Source: Dyella lipolytica
GTDB lineage: Bacteria; Pseudomonadota; Gammaproteobacteria; Xanthomonadales; Rhodanobacteraceae
Direction of reading: 5' to 3'
NCBI RefSeq assembly: GCF_030160075.1
Contig: NZ_BSNQ01000005.1
Coordinates: 1-64,000 of the forward strand
DNA: 64,000 nt
Shown here: positions 33,201 to 47,284 of the stretch, piece by piece
Layout: each line of letters opens with the position of its first letter
How positions within the stretch are numbered: the stretch's first letter is position 1
Made by a program: the position numbers and the translations under genes
Notes under the pieces: generated by a model
The model's database searches: none
What the model was told of the DNA's origin: nothing
What the model saw: the letters and a program-made list of their open reading frames with translations, nothing else

Positions 33201-34766
33201 TTACGCGCGCAGCAGCAATCGATAGGCGGGATTGTCGCTTTCGTCCACGTGTGGATAGCCCAGCGTGTTGAGAAAATCGCGCAGCAGCGAAAGCTCGTTG
33301 GGTGGCACCTGCATTCCGACCAGAATCCGTCCATAGTCGGCGCCGTGATTGCGGTAATGGAACAGGCTGATGTTCCAGTCCGGATGCATGCGTTCCAGGA
33401 AACGCGCCAAAGCGCCTGGGCGTTCGGGAAAATCGAAGCGGTAAAGCCGCTCATCGCGAGCAAGCGCCGAACGGCCACCGATCATGTGGCGCAGGTGCAG
33501 CTTGGCCAGTTCGTCGTCGGTAAGATCGAGTACGCCGAAATCATTGGCGCGGAACGCATCGGTCAGCGCCTCGCGCTCACCACGTTGCGCGGTCTGGATG
33601 CCCACGAAAATATGCGCCGCATGGGCGTCGCCGATGCGGTAATTGAATTCGGTAATCGAGTGCTGGCCAAGCGCATTGCAGAAGCGTCGGAAGCTGCCGC
33701 GTTGCTCGGGAATGGTGACTGCAAACACCGCCTCGCGTTGTTCGCCGACTTCCGCGCGTTCAGCGACGAAGCGCAGGCGATCGAAATTCATATTGGCGCC
33801 CGAGACTATCGCCACAAGCGAGCCGCTGCATGCGCCGTGGGCAGCGACGTATTGTTTGAGTCCCGCGAGCGCCAGCGCGCCGGAAGGTTCCGGAATGCTG
33901 CGGGTATCCTGGTAAATATCGCGAATCGCCGCACAAATGGCATCGGTATCCACGCGCAGCACATCGTCGACGTATTGCTGGCATAGCGAGAAGGTCAATG
34001 CACCCACCTGCTTGACCGCCGTGCCGTCGGCAAACAGGCCGACCTCGTCCAGCGCCACGCGAGTACCTGCATCGAGCGCTCGTGCCATCGAATCGGCATC
34101 GCTGGCCTGCACACCTATCACGCGTACCTCCGGTCGCCGCGCTTTGATCACGGACGCGATGCCGGCAATCAATCCGCCGCCGCCGATGGGAACGAACACC
34201 GAGTGCAGCGGTCCGGGATGTTGGGCCAGCATTTCGAGCGCGATGGTTGCTTGGCCTGCGATCACATCGAGGTCATCGAACGGGTGTACAAACGTTGCGC
34301 CGAGCGCCTCACGCAAACGCAGGGCCTCGGCCTGCGCCTCGCTATAAGAATCACCCGCAAGAACAACATCGGTGTAGCTGCCGCCAAAGCGACGCACGGC
34401 ATCGACCTTGACTTGCGGCGCAGTGACCGGCATCACGATAGTGGCGCGTATACCCAGGCGCGATGCCGCCAAGGCTACGCCCTGCGCGTGATTGCCGGCC
34501 GAAGCGGCGACGACGCCGCGTGCGCGTTGCGTCTCATCGAGCTGCGCCATGCGGTTGTAAGCGCCGCGCAGTTTGAATGAAAACACCGGTTGCTGATCCT
34601 CGCGCTTGAGCAACACGGATGTGCCTAACCGCGCCGAGAGCAGCGAAGCGGGTTCCAGCGCGGTGTTTTGCGCGACTTCGTAAACGCGTGCGGCCTCGGC
34701 CAGGCGTAATACGGACGCCGCCGTAAGCGCCATATCGCTATCGTTTTGCGCCAACCTGGCGTTCAT
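33201..34766 (-). CDS. ilvA: Biosynthetic threonine ammonia-lyase
   Basis: A 521-residue PLP enzyme converting threonine to 2-oxobutanoate, the first step of isoleucine synthesis. The cofactor Lys is in [10 protein letters not shown], with [10 protein letters not shown] and the glycine loop [10 protein letters not shown]. Two ACT-like regulatory repeats occupy about residues 340-510 ([19 protein letters not shown] and [19 protein letters not shown]), as in the isoleucine-inhibited enzyme. It starts with an ATGA overlap on ilvM and is the last gene of the operon; no terminator is evident before the convergent gene 14 bases away. Confidence 0.96.
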
Positions 34767-35002
34767 GCCTGTGCCGGATGTTCAACTTGCAGCACATCGA
34801 CCAGTTTGCGCGTTTGCTGCAGGATCTGCGTAAGCGTGGCATCGTCGCCGCGCACCGTCAGGGTGAGGCGCGATACCGCCGGATCGTTGGTAGCGGCGAC
34901 CGTCAACGTATCGATGTTGTGACCACGCGCGGCAAACAGTCCGGCCACGCGGACCAGGGCGCCGGCTTCGTTCTGCAGCAGAATGGAGAGTGTGTGTTGC
35001 AT
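34763..35002 (-). CDS. ilvM: Acetolactate synthase small (regulatory) subunit
   Basis: A 79-residue single ACT-domain protein ([32 protein letters not shown]) that would confer valine control and stability on acetolactate synthase. The short one-domain form is that of the E. coli IlvM/IlvN type rather than the longer two-domain IlvH. It lies 24 bases after ilvG and overlaps ilvA by four bases. Confidence 0.93.
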
Positions 35003-35026: not shown

Positions 35027-36895
35027 TCAGAAGCTATCGGTGGCCGCGGTGTCGCCCAGATGCGGGGCTTCGCGCGCGGGAATGAAATCGCCGGTGATCA
35101 TCTGCGAGTAATTGGCTCCGGGACCGACCATGGGATACACGCCGGCATCCGGGTCGATCATCACTTCCAAGAACGCCGGGCCGTCGAACGCTAAAAATTC
35201 GGCGATGGTTGCGGCCAGCTCGTCGCGCTGCTCCAGCCGACGCGACCATGCGAAACCGTCCGCCTCAGCGGCGCGCACGAAATCCTTGCGATGAAGGCTT
35301 TTATCGGATGACGCGAAGCGGCCCTTGAAGAACAACTTCTGCCACTGCCGCACCATGCCGTCGCCGACGTTGTTGAGCACGACGATCTTCAGCGGCAAGC
35401 CATACGTCGTGACGGTTTCCAGCTCACCGAGGTTCATGCGGATGCTGGCATCGCCGTCGATATCGATGACCAGCGCATCGGGGCGTGCGAACTGCGCGCC
35501 GATTGCGGCGGGTAGACCGAAGCCCATCGTGCCCATCGAACCGGAGGTCAGCAGATGACGTGGCGCGCAGAAGTCGAGGTATTGCGCCGCCCACATCTGA
35601 TGCTGGCCCACACCGGTGCTGATGATCGCGCGCCCCTGGGTATGTCGATTGATCTCTTCCAGCACCGCGTTGGGCTGAATCAGTGCGCTATCGCGGTCGT
35701 AGTTCATGGCGTACGTCTGCTTGAGTGCGCGTACGTGGGCATGCCACTCGCTCGGCGCCGGCTGATGAAGATGTGCTTTGCCGTACTGCGTGAGTCGCTG
35801 CAGCGCGCGATCGAGCGGTCCTACGTGATGCCAATCGGCATGCTTGACCTTGTCGATTTCCGCTGGGTCGATATCGATATGTGCCACAAATTTTGCGCGT
35901 GGTGCGAACTGCGTGGGCACGCTAGCGACGCGGTCGTCAAAACGCGCGCCCAAGGCGAACAGGAAGTCGCAATCTTCCACGGCATAGTTGGCGTAAGCCG
36001 TACCGTGCATGCCAAGCATATGCAACGCCAGCGGTTCCGTAGTGTCGTAGCCGCCGATGCCCATCAACGTAGTGGTGACGGGCAACCCAAACGCCTCGAC
36101 GAAGGCGCGCAGCGCGGGTGCCGCGCCGCCGGCGACAATGCCGCCTCCGGCGTAGATAAGCGGACGCTTCGCGCGCGACAACGCAACAAAAAAGTTTGCG
36201 CATTCGGTATCGCTAAGCGTCGCCTGCTCCACGGCGCGCAAACGGGCGCGATAGCCCGGCAGCGGCAATTCGCCCCGGCCCTCGAAAAGGAGGGTGGCGT
36301 TCTGCACATCTTTGGGTACGTCCACCACCACCGGCCCAGGCCGTCCGCTGCGTGCGATGGTAAATGCGGTGCGTAACGTCGCTTCCAGCTGTGCGGCGTC
36401 GGTGACCAGAAATACATGCTTGGCGCACGCGCCCATGATGTTGCTGATCGGTGCTTCCTGGAACGCATCGCTGCCGATGGCCTGCGTAGCGACCTGTCCG
36501 CAAATGACGACCAGTGGAATCGAATCGGCCGTCGAATCGCGCACCGGGGTCACCATGTTGGTGGCGCCAGGGCCGGAGGTGACGACCGCCACGCCGACCT
36601 TGCCCGAGGCGCGCGCGTAGCCGGCCGCCATGAAACCTGCTCCCTGCTCGTTGGCCGGCACGATCAGCGGCATCGGTTCGCTACCGTCCGGTTTTAAATG
36701 TTCCGCGTTGTGACGGAACACCGCATCGTAGACCGGCAGGATCGCGCCGCCGGAATAGCCAAAAAGTACGTCGACACCTTCGTCAGCCAATACCTGTACG
36801 AGGACATCCGCACCACTCAGGCTCTTTCCTGCCAGTGGGTGACGCGCGGCGCCGATGTCGGCGCCGGCTGCGAATGATGGTTTCAGCATTGGCAT
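35027..36895 (-). CDS. ilvG: Acetolactate synthase large (catalytic) subunit
   Basis: A 622-residue thiamine-diphosphate enzyme condensing pyruvate with pyruvate or 2-oxobutanoate. The N-terminal Glu for cofactor activation lies in ANEQGAGFMAAGYAR, and the ThDP/Mg motif is IDGDASIRMNLGELETV. FAD-binding region residues and a C-terminal ThDP domain are complete with no frameshift. ATG at 36895 is used; a GTG at 36901 with GGGA five bases before it is an equal candidate. The 99-base gap to ilvC holds a GC-rich hairpin. Confidence 0.95.
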   Translation of the reverse strand: MPMLKPSFAAGADIGAARHPLAGKSLSGADVLVQVLADEGVDVLFGYSGGAILPVYDAVFRHNAEHLKPDGSEPMPLIVPANEQGAGFMAAGYARASGKVGVAVVTSGPGATNMVTPVRDSTADSIPLVVICGQVATQAIGSDAFQEAPISNIMGACAKHVFLVTDAAQLEATLRTAFTIARSGRPGPVVVDVPKDVQNATLLFEGRGELPLPGYRARLRAVEQATLSDTECANFFVALSRAKRPLIYAGGGIVAGGAAPALRAFVEAFGLPVTTTLMGIGGYDTTEPLALHMLGMHGTAYANYAVEDCDFLFALGARFDDRVASVPTQFAPRAKFVAHIDIDPAEIDKVKHADWHHVGPLDRALQRLTQYGKAHLHQPAPSEWHAHVRALKQTYAMNYDRDSALIQPNAVLEEINRHTQGRAIISTGVGQHQMWAAQYLDFCAPRHLLTSGSMGTMGFGLPAAIGAQFARPDALVIDIDGDASIRMNLGELETVTTYGLPLKIVVLNNVGDGMVRQWQKLFFKGRFASSDKSLHRKDFVRAAEADGFAWSRRLEQRDELAATIAEFLAFDGPAFLEVMIDPDAGVYPMVGPGANYSQMITGDFIPAREAPHLGDTAATDSF

Positions 36896-36947
36896 GTTCA
36901 CTACGGTCCCTTAGCGATGATCAGAATGTGCCGATAAGAGCCATGCA

Positions 36948-36994: not shown

Positions 36995-38011
36995 TTAACC
37001 AACCTTCTTCAATGGCGCGGGTTCGGACTTTGCGCCGGTCTGCAACCACGGCATGCGTGCGCGCAACTTCGCGCCGACTTGCTCGATCGGGTGATCGAGG
37101 TCCGCCTGCTTCAGCCGTTTGTAGTTCGGTAGACCCGCGTTGTATTCGGCGATCCAGTTGCGCGCGAAGGTGCCGTCCTGGATGTCTTTCAGCACAGCCT
37201 TCATGCGCTCTTTGGTCGCGGCATCCACGATGCGTGGACCGCTGACGTAGTCGCCGTACTGCGCGGTCTCCGAGACGAACTCGAGCATGCGAGTGATGCC
37301 GCCTTCGTAGAACAAATCCACGATCAGCTTCAGTTCGTGCAGTACTTCGTAATAGGCGATCTCGGGCTGGTAGCCGGCTTCGACCAAGGTTTCGAAACCC
37401 TTCAGCACCAGTTCGCTGGCGCCGCCGCATAGCACAGCCTGTTCGCCGAACAGATCGGTTTCGGTTTCTTCTTTGAAGTCGGTCTTGATCAGCATCGCAC
37501 GCGCACCGCCGATGCCGGCCGCATAGGCCTTGGCCTTCTCTTCCGCGTGACCGCTCTGGTCCTGATGCACGGCGTAGACGCAGGGCACGCCGCGACCGCG
37601 TTCGTATTCGCTGCGCACCAGTGCGCCGGGACCTTTCGGTGCGACCAGGACGACGTCGATATCCGCACGCGGCTCGATTTGCTTGAAGTGCACGTTGAAA
37701 CCGTGTGCGAACAGCAACGCGGCACCCGCTTTGATGTTGGGTTCGATCGACTGCTTGTACAGCGTGGGCTGCACCATGTCCGGCGTCAGCACGGCGACCA
37801 GATCCGCGCCGCGTACGGCTTCGGCAGGTTCGACCACGTGGAAACCGTCGGCCACGGCCTTGTGCCAGGTGGGACCATTCGGGCGCAGACCGACCACGAC
37901 ATCCAGGCCGGAGTTCTTGAGGTTGAGGGCGTGGGCGCGGCCCTGGCTGCCGTAGCCGAGAACGGCGATGCGCGCCTTGGCGAGCGTATCGGTGGTGGCG
38001 GTGCTGCTCAT
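36995..38011 (-). CDS. ilvC: Ketol-acid reductoisomerase
   Basis: A 338-residue class I (short) enzyme that isomerises and reduces acetolactate or acetohydroxybutyrate with NADPH. The nucleotide-binding loop is [17 protein letters not shown], followed by [12 protein letters not shown] and the Mg-binding helices ([13 protein letters not shown]). It overlaps the ilvD stop by four bases. Length is standard for the short form. Confidence 0.97.
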
Positions 38012-39738
38012 GCGGTAACTCCTGCGGTGGTCTTTGTCGTGGTGTGTTGTGCTTGCGGCCGTGGGGACACGGCAGTATTCGGATGGGTGGTGGCGCCGTC
38101 GGAAGCGGAGCCGACCAGACGCGCGTACTTGGCAAGCGCGCCGTGCGTGACTTTCGCAACGGGTGCTTTCCAGCCGGCGCGGCGGCTTTCAAGATCGGCG
38201 TCGGTGCGCAGTTCACGGCGGTCGCCGTCGATGAAGATGCGATCGCCGTCGTGCAGCAGTGCAATGGGGCCGCCGCGTGCCGCTTCGGGCGCGATGTGGC
38301 CGACCATGAAGCCATGCGTGGCGCCGGAGAAGCGCCCGTCGGTAATGAGACCGACGTCATTGCCGAGGCCGCGACCCACGAGTGCAGCAGTGACGCCGAG
38401 CATTTCGCGCATGCCCGGGCCGCCGGCGGGGCCTTCGTTGCGGATCACGATCACATCGCCGGGTTTGATCTTGCCGCCCTGCACCGCGGCGAAAGCTTCT
38501 TCCTCGCTTTCGAAAACGCGCGCGACACCTTCGAAGTGATTGGCGCCTTTGCCGGCAAGTTTCAGGATGCAACCTTCCGGTGCGAGATTGCCGTATAGGA
38601 TCGAATAGCCTCCGCGCGGTTTCAGCGGCTGTTTCACCGGATGCACCACGTCCTGTTTCTCGGCGCGCGGCGCAGCGGCGCATTCCTCGTACAGGCTGCG
38701 GCCGGTAACCGTGGGACGATCTTCGAGCATGCCTTCGGCGATCAATTCCTGCGCGACGCGTGCGCTACCACCAGCGCCAAACAACTCGACAGCCGTGTAA
38801 CGACCGCCCGGCAACAGGTCGGCAATCACAGGCGTGTGCACGGAGGCGGGTTCGAAATCCTCGATCGTCCACGGCACGCCGGCTTCGCGGGCAATCGCCA
38901 GCAAATGCAACACGGCATTGGTCGAACCCGCCGTCGCAGCAACCATGCGTGCGGCGTTTTGGAACGCGGTGCGGTCGAGAATACCGAGTGGCTTGCGCTG
39001 CTGGCGCAGGCAATCCATCACCAGCTCGCCGCAACGGAAGGCTGCATGCGCCTTGGCCGGGTGCGTTGCGGGAATATCATTGAAGCCCATCGGCGACAGG
39101 CCCAAGGCCTGCATCACCATCGCCATCGTGTTGGCGGTGAACTGGCCGCCACAGGCGCCGGCGCCGGGGCAGGCGTCCTTTTCGACCGCGGCCAGTTCTG
39201 CATCGTCGATCTTGCCCGCACCGTGTGCGCCGACGGCTTCGAACACCTGCTGGATGGTGATCGGATGGTTGTTGTGCGTGCCGTGCGCGATGCTTCCGCC
39301 ATACAGCGCGACCGCGGGAATATTCAAGCGCGCCATCGCCATCGCCGCGGCGGGAATGGTTTTGTCGCAGCCGCACAGCACCACCATCGCGTCGAGGCAA
39401 TGGCCATCGACGGCCAACTCGATCGAATCGGTGATCACTTCGCGACTGATCAGCGATGCGCGCATGCCTGGCGTGCCCATCGCAATGCCGTCGGTCACGG
39501 CAATCGTGTTGAACTCGATCGGTGTGCCGCCCGCCGCACGAATGCCGGCCGCCGCATGCTCGGCCAATTCACGCAGATTGAGATTGCACGGGCTGACATT
39601 GGACCAGGTGTGCACCACCGCCACCAGCGGCTTGCTGATATCGCTATCCTGCAGGCCGGTAGCACGCAACATGGCGCGCGCCGGGGCACGGTCGGGGCCG
39701 GTTTTGATCAGATCGCTACGCATCATGCCCTCGCTCAT
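38008..39738 (-). CDS. ilvD: Dihydroxy-acid dehydratase
   Basis: A 576-residue Fe-S enzyme making the 2-oxo acids of valine and isoleucine. The cluster-binding cysteines are in [12 protein letters not shown] and [14 protein letters not shown] further conserved block is [18 protein letters not shown]-terminal tail of about 25 Thr/Pro-rich residues goes beyond the usual end. ATG 39738 overlaps the leuB stop (ATGA), its own stop overlaps the ilvC start. Confidence 0.96.
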
Positions 39739-40826
39739 CCGCACGCGCGCAGACCGCACAAAAAGGCGGGTGTGGCCACGTCGTCCAGCGCCTTGATCAC
39801 CGCATCGCGCATGTCGCCGGTGCTGGCCTTGCCGCCGATATCGCGGCTGTGCGGACCATTGGTCAGCACATGACTGACGGCGGCTTCGATGGTCGTCGCT
39901 TCGATGTCCAGTCCCAGCGAATGGCGCAGCAGCAGCGCTGCGGAAAGAATGGCGCCCAGCGGATTGGCGACGCTCTGTCCGGCGATGTCCGGCGCCGAGC
40001 CGTGAATTGGCTCGTACAAGCCAACCTTGCCTTCACCCAGCGACGCGGATGGCAACAGGCCGAGTGAACCGGCCAGCGCGGCGGCCTCGTCGGTGAGGAT
40101 GTCGCCAAACAGATTCTCGGTGACGATCACGTCGTAGCGTGATGGCTGCGTCAGCAAGAGCATCGCCATCGAATCGACCAGCTGATGTTCCAGTTTTACG
40201 TCCGGATACTCCGCGGCGATGCGCGTCACCGTGCTGCGCCATAGACGCGAGGTTTCCAGTACATTGGCCTTGTCCACGGACGTCACCTGCTGACGGCGAT
40301 CGCGCGCCAGCTCGAACGCGCGGCGCGTGACGCGCTCGACTTCGGCCACGGTGTACTTGCACTCATCGGTCGCGGTATCGATGGTGCGCGTCTTGGCGCC
40401 GAAATAAGCGCCGCCGGTAAGTTCGCGCACGAACAGCACGTCAACGTTTTTCAACTTCTCGTTCTTCAACGGCGACAGCGAGGCCAGTGCGGGATGCACC
40501 TGCAGCGGACGCAGATTGGCGAAGACGCCGAGCGCGGCACGCAGTGCGAGCAGGCCCTGTTCCGGACGCACGGGTGCGTGCGGATCGGACCATTTCGGGC
40601 CGCCGACCGCGCCGAGCAGCACCGCATCGGCGTGCTTGCAGGCTTCCAGCGTGGCTGCCGGAAGCGGCTCGCCGGTCGCGTCGATCGCGCAACCGCCGAT
40701 GGCGTGCGCTTCAAACTCAAACGTATGACCGCTGCGCTCCGCAACGGCTTCCAGTACGGCGACTGCCGCTTCGATAACTTCCGGGCCTACGCCGTCGCCG
40801 GGCAGGGTAACGATGCGCGCCTTCAT
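39735..40826 (-). CDS. leuB: 3-isopropylmalate dehydrogenase
   Basis: A 363-residue NAD-dependent decarboxylating dehydrogenase of leucine synthesis. It opens with [14 protein letters not shown] and contains the substrate motif [11 protein letters not shown]-type ([15 protein letters not shown]) and the metal/NAD signature [21 protein letters not shown]. The start ATGA-overlaps leuD and the stop ATGA-overlaps ilvD. Confidence 0.97.
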
Positions 40827-41407
40827 GCCGCTTTCTCCTGTTGCTGTTCGTAATGAGTGATTGCGTCGGCCTGTTGCAGCAGGAAGCCGAGCTGGTCGAC
40901 ACCGTTGAGCAGGCAATGCCGCGCGAACGGTTCCAGCTGAAAGTGGATGCGTCCGCCATCCGGCAGCTCGATGGCCTGTTCACGCACGTCGATGGAAAGT
41001 TCGATGCCGGGGTTTTTGAGCAGCCAGTTGTGCTCCGCGTCGTCGAGCACGATGGCCAATAGGCCGTTCTTCAGCGCGTTGCCGCGGAAGATGTCCGCGA
41101 TCTCGCTGCACAGCACCGCTTGGATGCCATAGTCGAGCAGCGCCCACGGTGCGTGTTCGCGCGAGGAGCCACAGCCGAAGTTGCGGCCGGCGACGAGAAT
41201 GCCGCAGCCGCGCGCTGCCGGTTTGTTGAGCGGGAAATCGGGGTTGTCGCTGCCGTCCTGGAGGTAGCGCCAATCCTGGAAGCAATGCTTGCCCAGGCCG
41301 CTGCGTTCGGTGGTGGTAAGAAAGCGCGCGGGGATGATGCGGTCGGTGTCGATGTTTTCGTCGACCAGCACGGCGGTGCGCGAATGAATGCGCGTTACGG
41401 ATGTCAT
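40823..41407 (-). CDS. leuD: 3-isopropylmalate dehydratase small subunit
   Basis: A 194-residue swivel-domain subunit of isopropylmalate isomerase. It has [35 protein letters not shown] and the closing hydrophobic segment. Pairs with LeuC, whose stop overlaps its ATG by four bases. Confidence 0.97.
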
Positions 41408-42816
41408 GCGGCGGCCTCCGTCAGGTATTCGCGTGGATCGGCAATCGCGCCGGCAATCGCGGAAGCGGCCGCCGTAGCGGGGCTTGCCAGCACGGTGCGC
41501 GCACCTTTGCCTTGGCGGCCTTCGAAGTTGCGATTGGACGTGCTGACGACGAGCTGGCCCGGTTGTGCGAGATCGCCGTTCATCGCGATGCACATCGAAC
41601 AGCCCGGTATGCGCCATTCCGCGCCGGCAGCGAGAAACACGTCATGCAGGCCTTCGCGTTCCGCATCGCGACGCACGGCTTCGGAGCCCGGCACGACCAG
41701 CATGCGCACGCCGCTGGCGATGTGTCGGCCGCGCAGCACATTCGCCGCTTCGCGCAGGTCCGACAGACGCGAGTTGGTGCAGCTGCCGATGAATACGACG
41801 TCGACAGCGGTGCCTTGCATCGGCTGGTTCGGCTTGCCTTGCATGTAATCCAGCGCACGTTGTTCCTGTGCGTTGCGCGCGGCGGGGATGGGCTTGTCCA
41901 TCGCAATAGCCATGCCCGGATGCGTGCCGTAGGTGACCGTGGGGCGTACTTGGCTGGCATCGATGCGCACTTCGCGGTCGTACACCGCGTCAACGTCGCT
42001 ATGCAGGCCGCGCCAACGCTGCACGGCGGCGTCCCATGCCGCGCCCTGCGGTACGTTGGGACGTCCCTTCAACCAGGCGAAGGTGGTTTCGTCCGGTGCG
42101 ATCAATCCCGCACGAGCGCCGGCTTCGATCGACATGTTGCAAATCGTCATGCGCTCTTCCATCGACAAGGCCTCGATGGCTGCGCCGCGATACTCGAGTA
42201 CGTGGCCCGTGCCGCCGTCGACGCCGATCTCGCCGATGATGTGCAGGATCAGATCCTTCGCGCCCACGCCGCGCGGCAGTTTGCCGTCGACATGGATCGC
42301 GAAGGTTTTCGGTTTGCGTTGCAGCAGGCATTGCGTGGCCATGACATGGCCGACTTCGGTGGTGCCGATGCCGAAGGCCAGCGCACCGAATGCACCGTGC
42401 GTGGAGGTGTGGCTGTCGCCGCAGACAATCGTCATGCCCGGCTGGGTGGCGCCGAGTTCGGGACCGATCACGTGCACGATGCCGCGATCGCTGCTATCCC
42501 AGCCATAGAGCTTTACGCCGAATTCGCGACAGTTCGTTTCCAGCTGCGCGACCTGCGCTTTGGCTTCGGCGTTCGCGTAGGGGCGTTCGCCGTTTGCCTG
42601 CGCGGGCAACGTTGGGGTGGAATGATCTAGCGTAGCCAGCGTGCGATCGGGACGACGCAGTTTCAGGTCACGCTCGCGCAATTCGCTGAAAGCCTGCGGT
42701 GAGGTGACTTCATGCACCAAGTGCAGGTCGATGTAGAGCACCGCCGGTGTGTCGACGGTTTCGGTCGCGACGACATGAGCGTCCCAGATTTTTTCAAATA
42801 GCGTGCGCGCGCTCAT
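41404..42816 (-). CDS. leuC: 3-isopropylmalate dehydratase large subunit
   Basis: A 470-residue aconitase-family subunit with a [4Fe-4S] cluster. Signatures are [35 protein letters not shown] and GCSMCIAMN, which together give the three cluster cysteines. Length matches E. coli LeuC (466). ATGA overlaps at both ends. Confidence 0.97.
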
Positions 42817-43751
42817 GCGGCCTCCTCGGCGCGATTGGTTTCTACATGGGTAAGCCAGCCGTAACGGTCTTGCGTGCGGCCGTTGAACAAACCGAAGAAG
42901 GCATCGCGCAGCGCGCGCGTGATCGGGCCAGGTGTGCCGCTGCCAACGTTCTTGCGGTCGACCGAACGTACGGGTGTGATTTCCGCAGCCGTGCCGGTCA
43001 TGAACACTTCGTCGGCGCTGTAGAGCGCTTCGCGCGGCAGATCGCGTTCTTCGACGGAAAGGCCAAGATCGCCGGCGAGCGTGATGACGGTGTCGCGTGT
43101 GATGCCGGCGAGAATGCCCGCGCTAGAGGGCGGCGTAAGCAATTTGCCGCGCTTGACCAGGAATAGGTTTTCGCCTGCGCCTTCACTGAGCAAACCGTTG
43201 TGCCCCAGCGCGATACCTTCGTCAAAACCGCCGCGGCGCGCCTCCAGTCCGATCAGTTGGCTGCTGAGGTAGTTACCGCCTGCTTTCGCCCAGCTAGGGA
43301 TCGTGTTGGGCGCCGGACGATGCCACGACGAAACACACACGTCCGCGCCGACTTCGGCTGCCTCGCCGAGATAAGCACCCCATTCCAAAGCCATGATCGC
43401 GACGTCGACGGGCGCACCGTCCCTGGGGAGAACGCCGAGCCCGCCGGCGCCGCGAAAGACAATCGGTCGTACATAAGCGGATGCCATCCGATTGGCGCGA
43501 ATCAATTCCAGGCAGGCTTCATCGATCTGCTGTTCGCTATAACCGATCTCGATCTCGTACACGCGCGCCGATTCGAACAGGCGGCGCGTGTGATCGGCGA
43601 GGCGAAAATACGCAGGACCGTCGGGCGTGGCATACACGCGCTCGCCTTCGAAGACGGATGAGCCGTAATGCAGCGCATGCGTGCTGACGTGGACCGTGGC
43701 TTCGGCCCAGGGCTTGATGCGCCCGTTGTGCCAAAGAAAGGGCGTACTCAT
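42813..43751 (-). CDS. ilvE: Branched-chain amino acid aminotransferase
   Basis: A 312-residue fold-type IV PLP transaminase performing the last step to leucine, valine and isoleucine. The cofactor Lys is in [13 protein letters not shown], the family [15 protein letters not shown] and [16 protein letters not shown] are conserved, and length is near E. coli IlvE (309). It is placed between leuA and leuC, with ATGA overlaps on both sides. Confidence 0.97.
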
Positions 43752-45355
43752 ACGGAAACTCCTTGCAATGGCGCGGCATTGGCGTGTCGTTCGATGCCTT
43801 GCCGTTCGATGCGATTGACGATGGCGAGCGCGGCATGCGCGGTCGCTTCGATGATGTCGGTGCTCACGCTGCTGCCGTTCCAGTCGTGCCTCGCGTGGCG
43901 CGCGGTGAGTTGCGCATAGCCTTGCGCATCGCCGCCCTCGCTCATTGCGCGGACCTGGAAACGGGTCAACACCATGTCGGTGCCGGTGGCGCGCTCGATC
44001 GCACGCAGCACAGCGTCCACCGGACCATCGCCGATGGCGGCTTCGCCGACTTTGCGGCCGTCGTCATGGATCAGCTTTACCGTCGCCGAAGCGCTGCTAC
44101 CCAAGTGCGAACTGGTGTTGAGCTGATCGAGGCGCCACGGGCCCGTGGCATCCGGATCCAAGCCCAGGGCCAATGCCTCGAGATCCTCGTCGCGAATATC
44201 GCGTTTGCGATCGGCGAGTGCTTTGAAAAGCTTGAAAACGCCGTCGAGGGCCGCGTCGTCCAACGAGTGGCCGAGTGCTTCCAGACGCTGACGCAGCGCA
44301 TGGCGGCCGGAATGCTTGCCGAGCACCAGGGTCGTCGCGGCAATGCCGACGTCCTCCGGGCGCATGATTTCGTAGGTGCCGCGATGCTTGAGCATGCCGT
44401 GCTGGTGAATGCCCGACTCGTGCGCGAACGCGTTTTCGCCCACGACTGCCTTGTTGCGCGGCACGGCCTGGCCGGTCACCTGGGTCAGCAGGCGCGAAGT
44501 GGGATACAGCTTGCGCGTGTCGATGCGCGTATGGAGGCCGAAATGCGGGGCGCGCACCTTCAGCGCCATCACGATTTCTTCCAGCGCCGCATTGCCGGCG
44601 CGCTCGCCGATGCCATTGATGGTGCACTCCACTTGCCGCGCGCCGGCACTCACTGCGGCCAGGCTGTTGGCCACGGCCATGCCCAGGTCGTCATGGCAAT
44701 GCGTGGAGAACACGGCCTTATGCGCATCGCGCACGTGGCGACGCAGGTAGGTGAACAACTCCACCATTTCGGCAGGCGTGGTGTAGCCCACCGTGTCAGG
44801 CGCGTTGAGCGTGGTGGCGCCGGCGGCGATCGCGGCACTGAACACTTCGACCAGAAATTCCGGCTCGGTGCGCAGTGCATCTTCCGCGGAAAATTCGACA
44901 TCCGCGCAGTATTTGCGGGCGCGCTCGATGGACGCGACAGCCGTATCCAGCACCTGTGCCTTGCTCATGCCCAGCTTGTGCTCGCGGTGCAGCGGGCTGG
45001 TGGAGAGAAACAGGTGGATGCGCGCGTGCCGTGCGCGTTCGAGTGCACGTGCAGAGGTGTCGATATCGCCGTTCTGGCAGCGTGCGAGTGCGCACACCGT
45101 GGTGTTGCGCAACGTGCGCGCGATTTCTTCGACAGCGGCGAAATCGTCCGGGGAAGCCTGCGGAAAACCGGCTTCGAGGATATCCACGCCTAGCGCTTCC
45201 AGCGCTTGTGCCATGCACAATTTCGCGCGCCGGTCCATGGAAAAACCGGGCGCTTGCTCGCCGTCGCGCAAGGTGGTGTCGAAGATGCGTACGCGATCTT
45301 CGGCGCTTTCTCCACCTTGGTCGTTGTCGTTCGGTTGTGCTGTTTCGGGGGTCAT
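43748..45355 (-). CDS. leuA: 2-isopropylmalate synthase
   Basis: A 535-residue enzyme condensing acetyl-CoA with 2-oxoisovalerate, the first committed step to leucine. The catalytic domain begins RIFDTTLRDGEQAPG and has the HCHDDLGMAVANS metal-binding stretch; a C-terminal LeuA dimer/allosteric domain runs from about residue 390. ATG 45355 is preceded by GGAGCC. First structural gene of the operon, 36 bases after the attenuator terminator. Confidence 0.97.
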   Translation of the reverse strand: MTPETAQPNDNDQGGESAEDRVRIFDTTLRDGEQAPGFSMDRRAKLCMAQALEALGVDILEAGFPQASPDDFAAVEEIARTLRNTTVCALARCQNGDIDTSARALERARHARIHLFLSTSPLHREHKLGMSKAQVLDTAVASIERARKYCADVEFSAEDALRTEPEFLVEVFSAAIAAGATTLNAPDTVGYTTPAEMVELFTYLRRHVRDAHKAVFSTHCHDDLGMAVANSLAAVSAGARQVECTINGIGERAGNAALEEIVMALKVRAPHFGLHTRIDTRKLYPTSRLLTQVTGQAVPRNKAVVGENAFAHESGIHQHGMLKHRGTYEIMRPEDVGIAATTLVLGKHSGRHALRQRLEALGHSLDDAALDGVFKLFKALADRKRDIRDEDLEALALGLDPDATGPWRLDQLNTSSHLGSSASATVKLIHDDGRKVGEAAIGDGPVDAVLRAIERATGTDMVLTRFQVRAMSEGGDAQGYAQLTARHARHDWNGSSVSTDIIEATAHAALAIVNRIERQGIERHANAAPLQGVSV

Positions 45356-45390: not shown

Positions 45391-45423
45391 AAAAAACCCC
45401 GCATCCTGATCGGGTGCGGGGTT
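45391..45423 (-). terminator. Attenuator terminator of the branched-chain operon
   Basis: On the minus strand AACCCCGCACCC pairs with GGATGCGGGGTT, closed by a short loop and followed by six T. It precedes leuA by 36 bases. Its 5' arm can alternatively pair with GGTGCGGG at 45480-45473, at the end of the leader peptide frame. Confidence 0.9.
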
Positions 45424-45468
45424 CTTCGGGGTATCTAGGTTAGTTTTGCTTTACCTTGACACGCGCCC

Positions 45469-45606
45469 TCAGCCCGCACCTCCGTTGGTAATAAGGAGTA
45501 CGAGTACGAGGGGAAGAAGAAGCAGGCCACCGAAGGGCAGCAGATCCATGTCCGTCGGTGGACGGATCGCACGGGTCACATAACGGTGGCTGTTGCGCTG
45601 CGGCAT
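45469..45606 (-). CDS. Leader peptide of the leu-ilv attenuator
   Basis: A 45-codon frame, or 26 codons from a second ATG at 45549. The C-terminal half is LLLLPLVLVLLITNGGAG: seven of its first eleven residues are Leu, with two Val and an Ile, all three end products of the operon. Its stop lies 46 bases before the terminator hairpin. If the TTGACA promoter is used, the first ATG falls nearly at the transcript start, so either a leaderless start or the internal ATG is used. The identity as a control peptide follows from codon content and position. Confidence 0.82.
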   Translation of the reverse strand: MPQRNSHRYVTRAIRPPTDMDLLPFGGLLLLPLVLVLLITNGGAG

Positions 45607-45614
45607 GTCGTCGA

Positions 45615-45643
45615 CCCTAAGGCACGCTGTAACGACGTGTCAA
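45615..45643 (-). promoter_or_regulatory. Candidate promoter of the branched-chain operon
   Basis: TTGACA (45643-45638) and TTAGGG (45620-45615) are 17 bases apart on the minus strand. The -35 box is perfect, the -10 box poor (TTAGGG against TATAAT). Transcription would start around 45608. Confidence 0.55.
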
Positions 45644-45886: not shown

Positions 45887-47284
45887 ATGAACGCCCGAAA
45901 CCTACTGATGCCTCGTCGTCTTCCCCTGCGCCTGCTGCCATTGGGCCGTTTCATGCGGCCGAAACGGGAGGCCTTGCAGGCGTTTGCGGTGCACGCCGAC
46001 GGCATCCGGGTGCTGGACGATCCGATTGCCTTCCGCCGGACCCTGCTCGAGCTGATCGCACAGGCCACGCGCCGCATCGTGATCGTTGCCTTGTACTTGC
46101 AGGATGACGACGCCGGCCGTGAAGTACTCGATGCGCTCTATGCCGCCCGCAGAAACCATCCATCGCTCGAGGTGGAGATCTATGTGGACTGGCACCGCGC
46201 CCGGCGCGGCCTGATCGGCAAGGATGCCAGTGAAGGAAACGCGGCGCTCTATCGCCAGTACGCGACGCGGTTTGGTGATGACGTGCCGATTTACGGTGTG
46301 CCGGTGCAGAACCGGGAGCTGTTCGGCGTACTGCATCTGAAGGGTTTCGTGATCGATGAGGACGTGTTGTACAGCGGGGCGAGCATCAACGACGTCTACC
46401 TTGCCCGGCACGGACGTTATCGGCTCGATCGCTATCACCTTATCCGTCATGGCGGGCTGGCCGACAGCATGGCCGCCTTCGTGCACGATCATCTGCGCGA
46501 CAACGAAGCGGTCAGGCGAGTCGATCAAAGACCGTTACCGGCTACGCGCGATTTGCAGCATGCGATCCGTCATCTGCGCCGACAGCTGCAGCACGCGCGT
46601 TACCAGGTGCCGCGCGAACCGCTACCTGAAGGTGCGGTGGCGGTTACGCCGCTGCTCGGTTTCGGCCGCAGCGACAATCAGCTCAACGATACCCTCCTGA
46701 GCTTGCTGCGCGATGCTCGGCAGCGGGTGATCCTCTTCACGCCATACTTCAATCTGCCGCGTCCTGTGCGTGCGGTGCTCGGCAACCTGCTGCGTCGCGG
46801 CTGTGTCATCGACATCATGGTCGGCGACAAGACCGCCAACGATTTCTACATCCCGCCGCAGGAGCCCTTTCGCAAGATTGGTTTGCTGCCGTATCTTTAC
46901 GAAAGCAACCTGCGACGGTTTGCGCGTGCCCACCGTACGCATATCGCTCGCGGCCAGCTCAACCTTTGGCTATGGCGCGATGGCGACAACAGTTATCACC
47001 TCAAGGGTTTGTTGATCGACGACGAGATCGCCGTATTGACCGGCAACAATCTGAATCCTCGCGCGTGGGCGCTGGATCTGGAAAACGGGCTGCTGTTGCG
47101 CGACCCATCGTGTCTGCTCACGGCGAGGCACGAGGCCGAATGGGCCGCGCTGCGCAGCCATGCCGCGCGGCTGGACGACTACCATGCGTTGGATAACCCT
47201 CGTCGCTATCCGGCCGAGGTGCGCAGACTGTTACGGCGACTTAGCCGGGTGCGGTTGGATCGCCTGCTCAATCGATTGCTTTAG
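45887..47284 (+). CDS. pssA: Phosphatidylserine synthase (PLD superfamily, type I)
   Basis: A 465-residue peripheral enzyme forming phosphatidylserine from CDP-diacylglycerol and serine, the precursor of phosphatidylethanolamine. The two PLD motifs are LHLKGFVIDEDVLYSGASINDVYL and YHLKGLLIDDEIAVLTGNNLNPRAW, the latter nearly identical to E. coli PssA (451 residues). A cardiolipin synthase would have a different, membrane-anchored N-terminus. Basic helices at both ends suit membrane surface binding. Preceded by an AT-rich gap of about 240 bases that should hold its promoter. Confidence 0.92.
   Translation: MNARNLLMPRRLPLRLLPLGRFMRPKREALQAFAVHADGIRVLDDPIAFRRTLLELIAQATRRIVIVALYLQDDDAGREVLDALYAARRNHPSLEVEIYVDWHRARRGLIGKDASEGNAALYRQYATRFGDDVPIYGVPVQNRELFGVLHLKGFVIDEDVLYSGASINDVYLARHGRYRLDRYHLIRHGGLADSMAAFVHDHLRDNEAVRRVDQRPLPATRDLQHAIRHLRRQLQHARYQVPREPLPEGAVAVTPLLGFGRSDNQLNDTLLSLLRDARQRVILFTPYFNLPRPVRAVLGNLLRRGCVIDIMVGDKTANDFYIPPQEPFRKIGLLPYLYESNLRRFARAHRTHIARGQLNLWLWRDGDNSYHLKGLLIDDEIAVLTGNNLNPRAWALDLENGLLLRDPSCLLTARHEAEWAALRSHAARLDDYHALDNPRRYPAEVRRLLRRLSRVRLDRLLNRLL

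Follow-up and report, generated by a model that had tools for sequence, protein, structure and literature searches.

The window, that is, the whole 64,000-nucleotide stretch of Dyella lipolytica DNA analysed here, carries on its minus strand a leu-ilv operon in the order leuA-ilvE-leuCDB-ilvD-ilvC-ilvB-ilvM-ilvA, whose genes mostly overlap or nearly so. The first structural gene, leuA (43748 to 45355), is followed by ilvE (42813 to 43751), leuC (41404 to 42816), leuD (40823 to 41617), leuB (39735 to 40916), ilvD (38008 to 39759), ilvC (36995 to 38011), ilvB/ilvG for the acetolactate synthase large subunit (35027 to 36901), an ilvM-like gene for an ACT-domain small subunit (34763 to 35002) and ilvA for threonine dehydratase (33201 to 34766). 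All three branched-chain pathways are encoded by the operon. LeuA is 90% identical to its D. psychrodurans counterpart. In the leuD frame homology begins near residue 71, leaving about 70 extra N-terminal residues, and the true start of this gene is probably internal. The divergent neighbour on the plus strand (45887 to 47284) is a gene for a CDP-diacylglycerol-serine O-phosphatidyltransferase of the PLD family, and positions 1 to 80, also on the plus strand, hold the 3′ part of a 5S rRNA gene.

On the leuA strand, a leader frame of 45 codons runs from an ATG at 45606 to a TGA at 45471 to 45469, and its translation is MPQRNSHRYVTRAIRPPTDMDLLPFGGLLLLPLVLVLLITNGGAG. As an earlier, sequence-only reading of this DNA had claimed, the frame (45606 to 45469) ends in a stretch dense in Leu, Val and Ile: these residues occupy 13 of the last 25 codons, 21 to 45 (10 Leu, 2 Val and 1 Ile). 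The control codons, 28 to 39 (LLLLPLVLVLLI; 45490 to 45525, minus strand), specify Leu, Val and Ile plus one Pro. Leu is dominant among the control codons and all three end products are matched, which, together with the full gene content of the operon, bears out the claim that these codons cover all that the operon makes. The Leu, Val and Ile codons of the leader are rarer than expected by a small margin (930 of 20,000 draws were as rare, p ~ 0.05), and codon rarity was not relied on as a feature. An internal start at Met20 was discarded, as it is not conserved among relatives.

Between the leader and leuA lies an intrinsic terminator (hairpin 45391 to 45423, minus strand), present as first described, with a strong stem and six T (45396 to 45391). 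Its 5′ arm, CCCGCACC (45413 to 45420, minus strand), is also the 3′ arm of a mutually exclusive antiterminator, since it is the exact complement of GGTGCGGG (45473 to 45480, minus strand); this eight-base match, already noticed in the sequence-only reading, was verified. That reading had placed GGTGCGGG after the stop codon, but it actually lies inside codons 43 to 45 (GGT GCG GGC), immediately 5′ of the TGA. The corrected position fits attenuation better, because a ribosome at the stop codon would cover GGTGCGGG. Alignment and folding place a small AGGT...ACCT hairpin (45437 to 45456, minus strand; 45456 to 45453 with 45440 to 45437) in the antiterminator loop; in the alignment it is found in Dyella, Rhodanobacter and Luteibacter and is lost elsewhere. 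The terminator core pairs are invariant across 21 aligned sequences, and the folding of the leader beats that of all 200 dinucleotide shuffles (z = -4.0).

A covariance model built from 21 sequences was searched in 399 genomes of the order, where it matched 304 genomes and 81 of the 98 genera, with one convincing place in the genome of D. lipolytica itself. We inspected 76 loci with stronger matches, one or a few per genus; some came from the same species twice, and 70 leaders were distinct. The leader was present in all 76, with its run of Leu, Val and Ile codons and one Pro kept throughout. The element precedes leuA, ilvC, ilvD or ilvE at these loci: the head gene is leuA in Rhodanobacteraceae, mostly ilvC in another large family, and ilvD or ilvE elsewhere. 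In Lysobacter an ilvA-like reading frame, recognised by eye, sits directly 5′ of leuA, suggesting that the attenuator moved with the head of the operon. Upstream of leuA the leader peptide starts with M[PST]QR and ends with LVLVLLIT.GGAG in Dyella, Rhodanobacter, Luteibacter, Tahibacter and others.

The sequence-only reading had missed a putative promoter so close to the leader ATG that a 5′ untranslated region would not fit. Its -35 box, TTGACA (45638 to 45643, minus strand), was recognised from the conserved position of TTGAC and from a pattern match in the genome itself, and its -10 box, TAGGGT (45614 to 45619, minus strand), from the alignment of upstream regions; the spacer is 18 nt, and the -10 box lies 7 nt 5′ of the leader ATG. 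That alignment reads TTGAC, a spacing of 17 to 18 bases, TAnnnT, 6 to 8 bases and ATG. TTGAC was found 35 to 38 nt 5′ of the leader ATG in 74 of the 76 loci, ahead of four different head genes, and the two exceptions (L149 and L152) both belong to one distant family. At -1, 70 of these 74 loci have C and the other 4 have T; such a pyrimidine would be expected if transcription started on the A. The -10 box is degenerate, being TAGGGT here and TTATCT-like in Xanthomonadaceae, and it is more so in ilvC-headed loci, at the same distance to the ATG. The full promoter-plus-ATG pattern occurs 3 times in the 4.05-Mb genome (4 times in the reversed control), two of the three being amino-acid leaders, and is so sparse that a chance match at the leader ATG is very unlikely.

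No marked enrichment of Shine-Dalgarno sites was detected before the leader ATG across the 76 loci (median anti-Shine-Dalgarno energy -3.1 kcal/mol, against -2.5 kcal/mol for shuffled sequences); the site of leuA itself reaches -5.8 kcal/mol. Since the promoter stands too near for a Shine-Dalgarno site or a 5′ untranslated region, we predict a leaderless leader whose start codon lies at the 5′ end of the transcript or no more than 2 nt from it. A -10 box about 6 to 8 nt before the AUG without a Shine-Dalgarno site is the arrangement of a leaderless mRNA. The sequence right after the start, ATGCCGCAGCGCAACAGCCACC, is CA rich, and CA-rich sequence just downstream of the start aids leaderless translation (PMC9031893).

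It may be instead that the attenuator is real and its transcript not leaderless, starting from a promoter further upstream with an ordinary 5′ untranslated region, and that the conserved boxes are coincidental or mark a minor start. The -10 box is off consensus, and a simple sigma-70 scan did not list the leader promoter, an omission due to the degenerate -10. Nevertheless, we regard an upstream start as improbable in view of the nearly constant distance from -35 to ATG, the unfailing pyrimidine at -1, the lack of marked Shine-Dalgarno enrichment, and the same layout before another predicted leaderless leader. The latter, preceded by one of the other two occurrences of the full pattern, is a 49-codon, Thr- and Ile-rich ORF ahead of a homoserine dehydrogenase gene in the same genome (C9:839993-840300); in all 19 Rhodanobacteraceae genera examined it has TTGAC 36 to 38 nt 5′ of its ATG.

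At 72 of the 76 loci, the stop region paired with the terminator 5′ arm more stably than did 95% of shuffles. The pair occurs in at least five compensated forms, GGTGCGGG/CCCGCACC, GGAGCGGG/CCCGCTCC, GGTAGCGGG/CCCGCTACC, GCGCGGGG/CCCCGCGC and GGGGGCG/CGCCCCC. A check of conservation proposed in the sequence-only reading was thus passed by the leader frame and, through compensatory changes in relatives, by the GGTGCGGG/CCCGCACC pair. Native arms pair at -16 to -18 kcal/mol, and arms swapped between arm types mostly at -9 to -13 kcal/mol, except for one G-U tolerant combination at -15.8 kcal/mol. Swapping arms among all loci gave no discrimination (median 0.51) and is uninformative because most loci share one arm type.

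The third structure of the earlier proposal fared less well. Pairing of CCCTC (45512 to 45508) with GAGGG (45470 to 45466), extended by inner pairs, gives a possible protector hairpin (45466 to 45512, minus strand) in the minimum-energy fold of the window, but it is not conserved beyond base composition: in most relatives region 1 paired with region 2 no better than did shuffled region 1 (a median of 33 of 100 shuffles were as good). The set of three classical structures therefore describes the predicted fold of this genome and not that of the family.

We then folded the leader of the window stepwise, with the ribosome footprint removed and with arm 3 made and arm 4 not yet. The predicted probability of the antiterminator was 0.95 to 0.98 with the ribosome at codons 28 to 39, where a stall frees the antiterminator arm, 0.06 at codon 22, 0 at the stop codon and 0.02 with no ribosome. 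A stall favoured the antiterminator and a ribosome at the stop forbade it in 68 of the 70 distinct loci. At equilibrium the terminator always won in the full transcript (P = 1.00), indicating that the switch must be kinetic, set by the order of folding, as in known attenuators. The antiterminator probability without a ribosome had a median of 0.60 over the 70 loci; in this state the window and about a third of relatives sequester the antiterminator arm, which is free in the rest, and many relatives are predicted to antiterminate.

The locus has a short ORF in which codons for the products of the operon form a run, an intrinsic terminator between this ORF and the first gene, and a mutually exclusive antiterminator sharing a terminator arm. 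Leader frame, covarying antiterminator, terminator and operon content agree with the original proposal of an attenuator, as does the putative promoter position, and we hold it very likely that a ribosome-mediated transcription attenuator heads the leu-ilv operon. The following account of transcript start, leader translation, stalling and amino-acid regulation is inferred. RNA polymerase would begin on the first base of the leader AUG or beside it, and a ribosome would load on this 5′-terminal AUG without a Shine-Dalgarno site and trail the polymerase. Were tRNAs for Leu, Val and Ile amply charged, this ribosome would reach the stop codon and cover the last three codons, GGUGCGGG, leaving the shared arm CCCGCACC to form the terminator, and transcription would end ahead of leuA. 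With charged tRNA scarce, it would stall in the LLLLPLVLVLLI run; GGUGCGGG would then be free to pair with CCCGCACC as it emerges, no terminator would form, and the operon would be transcribed.

A different ligand, be it a protein or a riboswitch ligand, might act on the same hairpins and make the leader frame secondary. Conservation of the accessory AGGT/ACCT hairpin in part of the family would suit such a ligand, but many relatives do without that hairpin and always keep the control codons, and no Rfam family reaches its threshold at the attenuator; we give this idea very little credence. Still less credible is a constitutive or plain intergenic terminator beside a chance open frame, without attenuation: the terminator is indeed strong and wins at equilibrium, but conservation across the order extends to the leader peptide, its control codons and a covarying antiterminator, and the element follows the branched-chain operon even when its head switches from leuA to ilvC or ilvD. 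Equally slight is the chance that the branched-chain element belongs to the threonine operon leader family, Rfam RF00506, which it matches over the full model at 25.8 bits and whose E. coli member thrL also ends in GGT GCG GGC TGA, given that seven other places in the genome score higher, that it has no Thr run, and that a separate Thr-rich leader precedes the homoserine dehydrogenase gene.

Membership in RF00506 was rejected, as 25.8 bits is far below the gathering score of 55. The branched-chain element resembles Thr_leader in that both have GGUGCGGGC as the antiterminator arm, overlying the stop codon, and CCCGCACC as the terminator arm, and differs from it in lacking a Thr control run. The most plausible reading of the ending shared with thrL is that both converged on one antiterminator arm. 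A look upstream of hisG, trpE and pheA in the D. lipolytica genome revealed no leader peptide for His, Trp or Phe, and such leaders may be confined to the operons for threonine and the branched-chain amino acids.

In its textbook form an attenuator has a Shine-Dalgarno site at the leader start and a protector hairpin; the latter causes termination without translation and is found in many, not all, leader-peptide attenuators. The Dyella element is like the E. coli ilvGMEDA, ilvBN and leuABCD attenuators in its Leu/Val/Ile-rich leader, its mutually exclusive antiterminator and terminator, and its place at the head of a branched-chain operon. It differs from them in that the leader has no Shine-Dalgarno site and a longer N-terminal part with a conserved M[ST]QR[NT], that the antiterminator arm is encoded by the last codons, that no protector hairpin is conserved, and that the operon behind it is a full leu-ilv operon headed by leuA. 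A survey of proteobacterial attenuators by Vitreschak et al. in 2004 reportedly included predicted ones in branched-chain operons of Xanthomonadales. The attenuation mechanism is already known, and its predicted order-wide leaderless form would be new.

Attenuation from a leader AUG at the 5′ end has precedents elsewhere. In the ilvBNC attenuator of Corynebacterium glutamicum (PMC11857589, citing Morbach et al. 2000), transcription begins one nucleotide away from the leader AUG and there is no ribosome binding site; this branched-chain attenuator shares the layout predicted for the Dyella element but comes from an actinobacterium, with an unrelated 15-residue leader and a three-hairpin model in which the first hairpin covers the start. 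The trpL of Sinorhizobium meliloti, where attenuation is exerted by a leaderless small ORF, shows that the arrangement exists in Proteobacteria (PMC7298713), and mycobacterial polycysteine leaderless ORFs also drive attenuation (Canestrari et al. 2020, cited in PMC9031893). Both concern other amino acids and other classes and bear no sequence relation to the Dyella leader. In the literature searched, outside which most subscription journals fell, no leaderless attenuators were reported in Gammaproteobacteria.

On balance, we favor the view that the branched-chain operon of the order, and at least in Rhodanobacteraceae the threonine operon, are run by leaderless control ORFs, with the promoter fixed on the leader AUG, ribosomes loading at the 5′ end, a dispensable protector and, in many species, failure of initiation read as a signal to transcribe. 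If the leaders are truly leaderless, the control codons would be read by ribosomes initiating on a 5′-terminal AUG, amino-acid control would be tied to conditions that favor leaderless translation, and this may account for the non-conserved protector. The predicted leaderless design, common to the order and to two operons in Rhodanobacteraceae, is the part that deserves specialist attention; the covariance model and the promoter-plus-ORF signature provide a means of annotating this type of leader, for which Rfam has no family.

After the stop codon of the threonine leader lies a GC-rich hairpin (GGCCCCGCCC...GGCGGGCC), which in this genome has no T run, suggesting that the mode of control may differ from that of the branched-chain element. 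The homoserine dehydrogenase gene is on a separate contig from the leuA attenuator in this genome; in several relatives the two share a strand, with the gene a few kb 5′ of the attenuator.
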